Source: Gamsiella multidivaricata
Lineage: Eukaryota > Mortierellomycota > Mortierellomycetes > Mortierellales > Mortierellaceae
Assembly: GCF_025024155.1 (NCBI RefSeq)
Contig: NW_026251767.1
Span: 1 to 64,000 of the forward strand
Length of the DNA stretch: 64,000 nucleotides
Direction of reading: 5' to 3'
A program made the position numbers and the translations under genes. Numbering within the stretch: the first letter of the stretch is position 1; each line of letters starts with the position of its first letter. The notes under the pieces were generated by a model. It was not told where the DNA came from. It did no database searches and saw only the letters and a program-made list of their open reading frames with translations. Shown here piece by piece: positions 2,215-17,566 of the stretch.

Positions 2215-2841
2215 CTATTATGAGACGAAAATCTTGCTCAAAATCAGCTACTGCAACAGGAACAGCTCAGACGCGATCAAGCCGATAATATGAAGAATGA
2301 TCATGCCGACAACGATGGCGAGCGATCAACCTTGATAGCACCGTAGCTACAACATCTCTCAACCTGTATTTATAGCCCGTAGCCTACTCGTATAAACCTG
2401 AGTCATTTTCCACCTCTTATTCACGCCTTACAGCTATTGCAGCTACACAAACAAATGAATCTGTGCTGTGTAATCAATTCCTTACACTTTCTTCAATTCT
2501 GGAGCTACAGAATTCAGTCTCGGGTCTTGATGCATGGTATGAATTGCCATTTTTCGTATGATCCTGTAGTGTGTTAAAATGAGAGAATTTGTCCATAATC
2601 CAATGGTCATCAACATAGGGATTGCTTATTTATATTGAACAACACCTTTGCATGAATATGCCACTCTTCATTTTGCGGCTCAATTGCGGCTCAGGATACA
2701 TCAAAAACTGAAACTAACTTGTGAAAAGTTGGACTTTTATTCTAATTCAACAATAAACTTGGTTGGAATTCGCCGACTCTAAGAAGTATCATTGTCGCTA
2801 CGCTTTAGGTACTTGTTATCGAATGTTTTGACGATAGCGCG
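2215..2841. other. Intergenic stretch with tandem GCGGCTCA boxes
   Basis: No gene was found. It holds the CTATAAATA element (2368-2376) of the gene ending at 1590. It also holds two consecutive copies of a TTGCGGCTCA box at 2673-2693, the reverse complement of the GAGCCGCA box seen before several other genes in this region. Confidence 0.5.
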
Positions 2842-3141
2842 CTATGCTGTTCTATCGATTCTTCCAAGAGTGGTACTACGCTTCGCAAAGCTAGGACCAC
2901 TGTCACTTCGCACACCGAGATGAAGGCCGCGCTTCTCAAAGCCAGGATCACTGTCACTTCGCGGACCGAGGTGAAGGCCGCGCTTAAAGAATTCAGCGTC
3001 GTGATGAGCGTCCAAGATGTCATCGGACTTAGTACCAGACGGAGCAGTCAGACCATCTGGGGCTGCTGGGGCTGCTGGGGCTGCTAAAACGGCAGCAACT
3101 CCAAAGAGTGCAATCATTGGCAGGGTGGAAATAAACTTCAT
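2842..3141 (-). CDS. Secreted precursor with Kex2-type sites and repeated peptides
   Basis: A 99-residue ORF starts at an ATG 73 nt downstream of a clear TATA box. Residues 1-21 form a classic signal peptide (MKFISTLPMIALFGVAAVLA), followed by an Ala/Pro-rich spacer. Three dibasic KR sites (residues 53-54, 70-71 and 87-88) then cut out GLHLGPRSDSDPGFE, GLHLGVRSDSGPSFA and an 11-residue C-terminal STTLGRIDRTA. The first two peptides are both 15 residues and share GLHLG.RSDS.P.F; their DNA is also repeated. The layout matches Kex2-processed precursors such as alpha-factor, KEP or dikaritin-type RiPP precursors. No Tyr/Trp core and no UstY-like (DUF3328) gene is seen nearby, so a RiPP is only one option. 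The role is unknown; it could be a secreted signal or an interaction peptide. Confidence 0.75.
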   Translation of the reverse strand: MKFISTLPMIALFGVAAVLAAPAAPAAPDGLTAPSGTKSDDILDAHHDAEFFKRGLHLGPRSDSDPGFEKRGLHLGVRSDSGPSFAKRSTTLGRIDRTA

Positions 3142-3213
3142 AATGGGAATTTTGTTTTTCTAGACTTGAGGAATTCGAGCTTTGAGATACTCCCCATGAC
3201 ACTCCTCAGGACG

Positions 3214-3225
3214 CCTTATATAGAC
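3214..3225 (-). promoter_or_regulatory. TATA box GTCTATATAAGG
   Basis: The minus strand reads GTCTATATAAGG, 73 nt upstream of the ATG of the peptide precursor. A TTGAGCCGCAAAA box (minus strand, 3257-3269) lies about 32 nt further upstream. Confidence 0.6.
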
Positions 3226-3337
3226 TTAATTTCTGCATTCACAAATCAAAGAGGTGTTTTGCGGCTCAATGCGTGCCATAATTTTATTTCATCTGAAAAC
3301 ATCTTTCCACCACGGTTTCGTTCATCCGGCCAAGAAA

Positions 3338-4141
3338 TTAATATCGAAGGTTACATTGACTTTGCAAGATTGCATTCTCAGATATTGTTCTCTTCTTTTC
3401 GTTTATGTAATAGTAATGTAACTTCCAACCTACACAAAAAAGCTCAAGATCTGCGAGTCTTCTATCACTGGGTGCAAGACAGATAGATTTCCGAAATGCC
3501 TTTTTCTCATTGAAATATCTCTCAAAGAGAACATTTCCTTCACGAACTTGAAATATTGCTATTTTTATCGCGCTACCGAAACGCACCTCGATGAAAACCG
3601 AGCTCATTTGACTCCTATCGACAAACGCATAAAAGTATTCATAGCCTCTGACATCAAAACCACGATGGAAGAGAGTGAACGCTCCAAGCGTTTCTTCAAA
3701 TTTTCTCAAAATCTGTATTATGCGACTGTAGCTTTCGTGACTATTTGGCAAAAGCGTTAAACGTTCAGTACATGGTAAAAAAACCCTGGAAGCAGGGAGG
3801 CAATGTAGGTTAAGGGTAATCGCCGCTGGCACTTAGATTTCGAAAGACACACCGACGCTTTGGGGCCGGACGAAAACAGTGTCTGGCCGAAAAAAAGTGT
3901 CTGGACGAAAAAAAGTGTCCATACGAATATCCACATGCAAGAGGCGTTGTATCTCTGGGGTGGGATTGGGGCGATGTCCCACAGCTGTCCGCCAAGGCCG
4001 CTAAGCGTTGGTGTGTCTTTTGAAATCAAAGAGCCAGCGGCGACTACCCTAAACCTAGAGGGCCTCCCAGACAAAACAAAAAAAAAAGGAAAAATAAACT
4101 GATACTTACAGCTCACGTATTGAATGAAGAGGCATAGACAT
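3338..4141 (-). CDS. Unrecognised small protein with mini first exon
   Basis: The proposed structure is exon 1 at 4110-4141 (MSMPLHSIRE plus CT), a GTAAGT donor, a long intron of about 370 nt, and exon 2 at 3338-3740 after an AAATAG acceptor. Phase 2 on both sides gives 144 residues beginning MSMPLHSIRELHESYSRI. The body contains EVRFGSAIKIAIFQV and a Cys-containing C-terminal half, but no motif I know. The join rests only on splice consensus and phase. The open frame also extends upstream of 3740 to about 3832 without an ATG, so exon 2 could be longer. It resembles the neighbours in size, strand and intron phase. Confidence 0.4.
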
Positions 4142-15972: not shown

Positions 15973-17566
15973 CACTAACTCCGGGAATTGAGTAAATGTT
16001 TTCCGATTTTTCATTCTTCTTATCAGAATAATTTATATGATGGACCCTCCTTTGTGAAATTCAACCATGTTGTAGTGCTGCCTCCAAAGCGTCAAGCATA
16101 GTTCATTTGAACTGCCTACTACATTACTAAAGAAGGTACGAATAAATGTTTGATACCATGTCATTTACTCAATTTCCGGCCCCTGGTGTTTTTATTTCGT
16201 ACTCGGATCTTTCCCCACCAAGTCCCTACCAAGTCATTATTCTCAGTAGCCAGTGTGACCTCCATTAGCGTTCTTCAGCGCCTCAATCCTTCGCGGCATG
16301 CTCTCAATTAGGGTCTGGCAGACTAAAGCCGGAATATTGTTCCATTCGACTTGCAATCGTTCCCACAATTCGATCATTCCTTCAGGAGGCTTAGGATACT
16401 TGGCTAGTTGCCTCTCGAGATGCTCCCAGAGGTGCTCTATCGGATTCATATCTGGAGAGCGTGCGGGCCAAAAGAGCAAGTTGTAGTTCTTTTTCTCGAA
16501 AAATCTCCTTGATACTCCCGCGGTATGCTTGGAGTCATTATCCTGCTGGAAAATCATACCCTGTGGCCGGATCCCATACCACTCTTGCGTCAATGGAACA
16601 CACTCCTCAAGGATCTCGACATACAGCTCAGCATCCATTGTCCCATGGATTTGAGAGATGAAGCCTGGCCCGTCATACGTCATGCAACTCCACATAAAAA
16701 GATGACCTCCTCCGTACTTGAGCGTCTCGTCAACGAGCCGGTCCTGGTCGCCGATTTTTGTGTTCTTCCAAACCCAGACCTTCCCATCGGACCCGTATCG
16801 GTTGGTCCTGGTTTCATCTGTCCATAGAACCCGTTTCCAGTCATCGATAGTCCAATGCTCATACATGCGGACAAAATCCATACGTTCCCTGCGATGATTG
16901 GCGGTCAGTTTGGGGCGCTTGACCTTTCGCATTGCCGTCAGTCCCTCCTCCCTGAAGATCTCTCTGACCCTGTTGGTAGAGATGTTGATGCCCAGTTGCT
17001 CAGAGAGATGCTTCTGCGCATCAACGGCCGTTTTACGATCGCCGTTTGTGATACGTCGTACGATTGCGCGTCGAGTGGTTGGGGATACCTGGCTTCGACG
17101 GCCGGCTTTTGCTGGAGGAATGCTCTGTTTGACTGTTTGCGCAATTTGGGACTGAGAAACAGAGTGCTTCCGAGCAGTCTGTCTTGTGGTCATACCGGAC
17201 TTTAGGTTCTCGATGATAAGACCCTCAACGATGGAACTGAGCTTCTTCATTGCGTAGGAGAGAAAATGATAGAAGGAGCTACAAGCTGTGAGAAACGGCG
17301 AGAATGCAGATGGTAAGGCGAGAAAAGTGTAAACGATTTAAATATTTTGGAATGAGAGGCCGGAAATTGAGTAAATGCAGCAGATAGACAAATACCTTGC
17401 GTTCTCCTTGGAATGATGCCAGAATGATTTCAAACTGTACCATACTGGTTAGACGTAGTAATGCTAATTTGGTAATGAAACGTAAGTTCATACTACCTTC
17501 CGTTTTAAAATTATGGAGCGCCAATGATAAACCGAGAAAACATTTACTCAATTCCCGGAGTCAGTG
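15973..17566 (-). mobile_element. Complete Tc1/mariner transposon with TA target duplication
   Basis: Terminal inverted repeats CACTAACTCCGGGAATTGAG (left, 15973) and the reverse complement of the right end (CACTGACTCCGGGAATTGAG) match in 25 of 26 positions through AGTAAATG. The element is flanked by TA on both sides (15971-15972 and 17567-17568). It encloses one intact transposase (16243-17250). A second, slightly diverged copy of the end motif lies inside each arm in opposite orientation (16162-16181 and 17358-17377), so each arm is itself an inverted repeat of about 200 bp. Confidence 0.85.
16243..17250 (-). CDS. Tc1/mariner-family transposase (DD34E), intact
   Basis: A 335-residue ORF with no stop or frameshift. 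The N-terminal 120 residues hold paired helix-turn-helix DNA-binding segments (TTRQTARKHSVSQSQIAQTV; then ...STNRVREIFREEGL) and a basic linker (RKVKRPKLTANHRRER). The DDE catalytic triad is D145 (WTDET), D237 (QQDNDSKHT) and E272 (PDMNPIEHLWE), with 34 residues between the last two. This spacing is typical of Tc1 transposases, which cut and paste at TA sites. The length is normal for the family. Intact coding capacity and near-identical TIRs suggest the copy is young. A remnant of a different Tc1 transposase lies just outside the right end. Confidence 0.92.
   Translation of the reverse strand: MKKLSSIVEGLIIENLKSGMTTRQTARKHSVSQSQIAQTVKQSIPPAKAGRRSQVSPTTRRAIVRRITNGDRKTAVDAQKHLSEQLGINISTNRVREIFREEGLTAMRKVKRPKLTANHRRERMDFVRMYEHWTIDDWKRVLWTDETRTNRYGSDGKVWVWKNTKIGDQDRLVDETLKYGGGHLFMWSCMTYDGPGFISQIHGTMDAELYVEILEECVPLTQEWYGIRPQGMIFQQDNDSKHTAGVSRRFFEKKNYNLLFWPARSPDMNPIEHLWEHLERQLAKYPKPPEGMIELWERLQVEWNNIPALVCQTLIESMPRRIEALKNANGGHTGY

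Follow-up and report, generated by a model that had tools for sequence, protein, structure and literature searches.

A probable prepropeptide family of Mortierellaceae with a conserved leader and variable KR-bounded C-terminal peptides

The described systems closest to the locus reported here are the KEX2-processed repeat proteins (KEPs), in which a signal peptide is followed by repeated units bounded by Lys-Arg (KR) sites. The excerpted text of Le Marquer 2019 (PMC6339444) and of Umemura 2020 (PMC7329392) establishes KEPs across fungi, Mucoromycota included: the former states that their role in early-diverging fungi is yet to be elucidated, and the latter reports 357 KEPs, in 38 of 39 Mucoromycota strains, with no word beginning ‘Mortierell’ in its text. 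These counts do not support the rarity outside Dikarya that an initial annotation of the locus had implied. According to the same excerpts, both surveys demand at least three repeats, so the precursor that we describe, which has two, could not have passed them; moreover, the conserved element of its family is the leader and not the repeat. Judged from its layout, this precursor would work like a KEP: the dibasic sites are present, and it is the number of repeats that places it outside the strict definition. Two further fungal systems share parts of the plan: ascomycete α-factor precursors combine a signal peptide, a pro-region and KR sites with, as in relatives of our gene, acidic spacers ahead of short aromatic peptides, and ustiloxin-type (dikaritin) RiPP precursors are secreted with repeated KR-bounded cores. 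Conotoxins and frog skin peptides are toxin and defence families in which a conserved leader precedes a hypervariable mature part. The likeness to our paralogs is one of layout, and the KR-bounded cargo of our two loci, unlike that of these families, has no cysteines.

The gene lies in a 64,000-nucleotide stretch of Gamsiella multidivaricata DNA (contig NW_026251767.1, positions 1 to 64,000; hereafter the window), among small minus-strand ORFs and with the end of contig C136 2.8 kb away; its features are collected in Table 1. The initial annotation had described a signal-peptide-like start, an Ala/Pro spacer, three KR sites, two 15-residue repeats and a TATA box, all of which we confirm for an ORF on the minus strand. 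In full, the precursor reads MKFISTLPMIALFGVAAVLAAPAAPAAPDGLTAPSGTKSDDILDAHHDAEFF-KR-GLHLGPRSDSDPGFE-KR-GLHLGVRSDSGPSFA-KR-STTLGRIDRTA, with KR at residues 53-54, 70-71 and 87-88. The two repeats are identical at 11 of 15 residues (44 of 51 nucleotides when the KR codons are included). The presence of a signal peptide was assessed by hydropathy alone: in a simple test the N-terminus proved hydrophobic, its best 9-residue mean being 2.72. We also noted an upstream ATG that opens a frame of 19 codons (window 3197..3138, minus strand), the stop of which overlaps the precursor's start codon (ATGA); the C176 paralog described below has GTG at the position of this ATG.

Table 1. Coordinates of the precursor gene and its associated elements in the window
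Feature	Position	Strand	Remark
Upstream block with TTGAGCCGCAAAACRCCTC	3243..3354	-	Copies on C151 and C169, each ~89% identical
TATATAA box	3216..3222	-	~75 nt 5' of the ATG; kept in the C176 paralog
Prepropeptide CDS, 99 aa + TAG	2842..3141	-	
Hydrophobic signal-peptide-like segment, residues 1-21	3079..3141	-	Hydropathy; no nucleotide difference from the C176 paralog
Ala/Pro spacer and pro-region, ending in DDILDAHHDAEFF-KR	2980..3078	-	Counterpart of the relatives' HxxxEFxKR pro-segment
First repeat, GLHLGPRSDSDPGFE-KR	2929..2979	-	Aligns with the P0003 acidic spacer RILDVRSDSEPAFE-KR
Second repeat, GLHLGVRSDSGPSFA-KR	2878..2928	-	
C-terminal peptide STTLGRIDRTA	2845..2877	-	Identical in P0002
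In-frame relic past the stop, RAIVKTFDNKYL-KR-SDNDTS*	2779..2841	-	NKYLKRSD matches the C176 paralog

One paralog was found in the same genome (37.48 Mb, 180 contigs), at C176:112667-112963. Across promoter, TATA box, 5'UTR and leader, 291 of 321 positions (91%) are identical between the two loci, without a single difference in the signal-peptide part; a diverged version of the gene-proximal part of the upstream block is likewise present at C176. The 54 leader codons compared differ by five amino acid replacements, three silent changes and one in-frame indel of three codons. The alignment ends directly past the first KR, behind which the two genes encode different peptides: at C176 this region reads GDSDDMIE-KR-WFNKYL-KR-SDAVDDQSEIDHGVE-KR-WLNKYL. 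Two ORFs close to the paralog (L018:896-1579 (+) and L018:3037-3612 (-)) were noted as well: one opens with a hydrophobic stretch, carries a KR early on and has no Pfam match, and one is RNase H-like (PF00075, E = 2e-8), so we take transposon remains to be present at that locus.

Beyond these two loci the gene has a wider family. A single-protein search returned 3 proteins among 105 candidates, a profile of four sequences 7 among 7990 scored, and a profile of five sequences 23 among 5671 candidates, every earlier match included. With one of these 23 being the window's own protein, and with the C176 paralog added, the family counts 24 members, two of them from the window's genome; the 22 further proteins reached by the profile searches rule out that the window gene is an orphan. 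The five members with source names all belong to Mortierellaceae: Haplosporangium gracile, Mortierella sp. AD032, Linnemannia schmuckeri (two) and L. gamsii. A third member in the window's own genome was not found by protein searches with P0003, P0007, P0008 and P0024 (P0008 matched nothing, the two known copies included, so the sensitivity of these searches is limited), and the viral and the bacterial/archaeal collections held no relative. Among eight members scanned with Pfam there was one non-significant match (E = 0.075), an eight-member profile against PDB sequences gave one match at chance level (E = 0.88), and the predicted fold of P0007 (mean pLDDT 61) had no match in the PDB. No paper describing the family was among those listed by searches of the open-licence PMC literature. 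Bearing in mind that KEPs are already known, what looks new is this apparently undescribed prepropeptide family, of which the window gene is probably a genuine member.

The usual plan of the family is a signal peptide, a segment resembling NPCEYFGMKKEWCVDG...KR, a pro-segment and a variable C-terminal part. The pro-segment resembles DDIKKGYKWPEGLMEAHDHAEFxKR; its HxxxEFxKR motif occurs in 19 of the 24 members, and the window gene carries it as DAHHDAEFFKR. The segment ahead of it has the form C-x9-C, likewise in 19 members: it is absent from P0001, P0002 and P0004, and P0022 and P0023 have one Cys only. In place of the first KR, P0001 has KS and P0004 has KL. The C-x9-C feature is hence usual for the family and not defining. 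The distant member P0024 keeps the segment, so we read its absence from the window gene, P0002 and the C176 paralog as probable secondary loss. Mean pairwise identity, computed over 15 of the 24 members (105 pairs), was 0.60 for the signal, 0.63 for the Cys2 segment, 0.47 for the pro-segment (pro2) and 0.18 for the C-terminus, the last value being lowered by the alignment of unrelated ends; P0017, one of the members used, has the look of a fused model. The nine rows left out were P0001, P0002 and P0004, which have no Cys segment, and P0011, P0014, P0018, P0020, P0022 and P0023, which are truncated at one end or stop at or near the pro-segment. These aligned sequences point to a leader that is conserved (47-63% identity) and a C-terminus that is hypervariable (18%) within the family. 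The C-terminal peptides include RFQNKYL (P0005), YYWTNKYL (P0003) and the pair WFNHPPLSVR and WFNRPPLSVR (P0024), and the last unit of both P0007 and P0009 ends in GPGSNKWGM. Two side observations concern gene models: P0014, P0023, P0018 and P0011 (marked partial) stop at the KR that follows the pro-segment or no more than one or two residues away from it, and are either cargo-less precursors or models cut at an exon border; the second half of P0017 (Linnemannia schmuckeri BG015_000959) starts MRFIKYLAVTVSLAATATSAAP, contains KR-WTSARP-KR and is possibly a second kind of KR precursor.

What, then, do the repeats of the window gene represent? The initial annotation had called for a search for relatives with conserved GLHLG...RSDS units; it is the layout that relatives share, and P0002 is the only other protein found to have the repeat motif itself. 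In P0003 the unit ahead of YYWTNKYL is RILDVRSDSEPAFE-KR, which matches the ...RSDSDPGFE-KR of the window; residues 72-106 of P0003, a stretch that covers both pro-segment and spacer, match the window precursor with E = 2.1e-4. A duplicated acidic spacer is therefore, as far as these alignments go, the best reading of the GLHLG repeats. This order of spacer and then aromatic peptide is seen in P0003, in C176 and, with another sequence, in P0024; P0005 has no spacer. The same frame continues right after the TAG stop of the window gene as RAIVKTFDNKYLKRSDNDTS*, and the segment NKYLKRSD is common to this relic and C176 (21 of 23 nucleotides match, a score reached by 0 of 5000 shuffles). With arginine allowed as CGN only, a scan of 37.5 Mb for the NKYLKR pattern gave exactly two hits, the relic and C176, against one for the reversed control. 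Ahead of NKYL the paralog has KRW and the relic KTF, i.e., the leading KR has decayed to KT. The window copy therefore appears to have lost or replaced the usual peptide of its branch, with the old cargo decayed outside the ORF; the 15-mers, which the initial annotation had taken as the obvious active peptides, correspond instead to the acidic spacer of P0003. P0002 also ends in STTLGRIDRTA, so the change of cargo probably predates the split of the window and P0002 lineages. The two repeats differ by five replacement nucleotides (four residues) over 38.7 sites and two silent nucleotides over 12.3 sites, which looks neutral, with no sign of constraint. Release of NKYL by stop readthrough is unlikely, because the leading KR reads KT. 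A 72-nt intron (GTGCGA...CATAG), the excision of which would take out the stop without shifting the frame, was considered and not adopted: its donor looks weak and no branch site was seen by eye.

The surroundings of the gene had been described as an accessory array of small genes with shared promoter elements. In part this stands: the exact 10-mer TTGAGCCGCA occurs on either strand at four positions in the window, all near small ORFs (1522, 2674, 3260 and 5184 only), and two of the five small minus-strand ORFs, 332-715 and 938-1348, are tandem paralogs of each other with 44% identity. None of the five has a Pfam match. A 19-mer version of TTGAGCCGCA, allowing at most two mismatches, is found at five places in the genome, and at none for the control. 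The 10-mer is possibly a shared regulatory element or a repeat remnant. ORFs 332-715 and 938-1348 have distant relatives (21-26% identity) on C151 and C169 (L003:836-1342 (+) and L004:765-1268 (+)), and the upstream block of the window gene lies there in opposite orientation, ~160 to 230 nt past the 3' end of these ORFs, so it is not simply the promoter of that ORF family. Elsewhere in the window, inverted repeats of 73 bp with 85% identity (3795-3867 and 3996-4068) surround a short core and look like a MITE, and a Tc1/mariner-type transposase ORF (DDE_3, HTH_Tnp_Tc3_2; 364 aa stop to stop) occupies 16243-17337 on the minus strand.

How such a precursor might be handled can be set out from the sequence. 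The product would enter the secretory pathway via its signal peptide and be cut behind each KR by a Kex2-type protease; once a Kex1-type carboxypeptidase had taken off the basic residues, short linear peptides would be set free outside the cell. Two tandem kexin genes are present on C113, with subtilase (S8) and P domains detected in searches of single exons, and cutting at KR is thus plausible. The conserved leader and pro-region would then serve as a delivery cassette, and the KR-bounded C-terminal peptides would change fast from locus to locus and from species to species. In the window's branch the cargo would usually be a short aromatic -NKYL peptide, placed behind an acidic spacer in P0003 and C176; from the window copy, with its spacer duplicated and its NKYL unit decayed past the stop, only spacer-derived peptides would be delivered. 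Accordingly modified, the initial proposal of a Kex2-type secreted precursor in a Mortierella-like fungus stands, with relatives that share its layout.

Several other explanations have to be weighed. That the ORF arose by chance would fit its shortness, but we regard this as exceedingly improbable. When the window's ATG ORFs of 60-200 aa (n = 152) were filtered for at least three KR after residue 20, or for two KR and a repeat, the window precursor alone was listed; when the window was resampled 20 times with a first-order Markov model, at least three KR were present in three of 2245 such ORFs, and none of them combined this with a repeat and a hydrophobic N-terminus. Stronger evidence than this chance test comes from the paralog with its three-codon in-frame indel and from P0002, a homolog from another source in which a deletion keeps the frame and the ORF and all three KR sites are retained; the 22 database relatives also argue against chance. 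It is less easy to set aside the proposal that the window copy is a decaying member of the family, its NKYL peptide lost to a stop and its remaining ORF without function, with C176 as the working gene. The in-frame relic with its KT, the neutral pattern of repeat differences and the correspondence of the repeats to a spacer all fit such decay. On the other hand, promoter and TATA box are intact, and P0002 keeps the ORF, the KR sites and the same end, although at such small divergence the latter is a weak argument; on balance we consider decay rather unlikely.

The nature of the cargo raises two more alternatives. A peptide sex pheromone comparable to ascomycete α-factor would account for signal peptide, KR sites and acidic spacers, and for the repeated short aromatic peptides of C176 (WFNKYL, WLNKYL) and P0024; a weak point in its favour is that an XA/XP dipeptide follows KR in two of the 24 members, P0016 (PA) and P0017 (IP, SP). 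The other 22 have no such STE13 dipeptide, the window gene (GL, GL, ST) and C176 (GD, WF, SD, WL) among them. Furthermore, the cargo behind the shared leader differs between two loci of the same genome, a pattern more in keeping with diversification than with a single mating signal. The remark in the initial annotation that trisporoids serve in mating in Mucoromycota is fair, and for Mortierella relatives too the cited portion of PMC3834313 gives trisporic acid as the pheromone that is assumed; the same portion notes that arbuscular mycorrhizal fungi have a STE3 orthologue, with no a- or α-factor genes reported. STE2 and STE3 profiles had no match in the genome and detected none of the 14 controls either. 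We judge a sex pheromone improbable, and a modified, dikaritin-type RiPP toxin precursor very improbable: KR-bounded cores with spacers, and the Tyr/Trp-containing -NKYL cores of relatives, would suit the latter, but the GLHLG cores contain neither Tyr nor Trp. The UstYa profile (PF11807, DUF3328) had no match in the genome, nor in any of the 14 controls, and UstYa was absent from the 10 ORFs scanned with Pfam out of the many more that the window holds. Most likely, in our inference, the family provides fast-evolving secreted signals or antagonism peptides directed toward other strains, microbes or plants, in preference to a sex pheromone. Taken as a whole, the explanation that we favour, with moderate confidence, is a family of precursors with Kex2 release and changing cargo that acts in signalling or antagonism and not as a sexual α-factor.

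A more specific version is tentative and could well prove wrong: Mortierellaceae may possess an interchangeable-cargo system, in which one cassette of promoter, signal peptide and pro-region delivers different Kex2-released peptides according to locus and species, much like the families of venom peptides, the -NKYL type acting as recognition or antagonism signals. If this is true, the window locus would show a cargo replacement under way, the former cargo being still legible past the stop. Little is known of peptide signals in early-diverging fungi; with its conserved leader the family can be traced through Mortierellaceae in the search for such precursors, and the predicted peptides are of a length that allows direct synthesis and testing.
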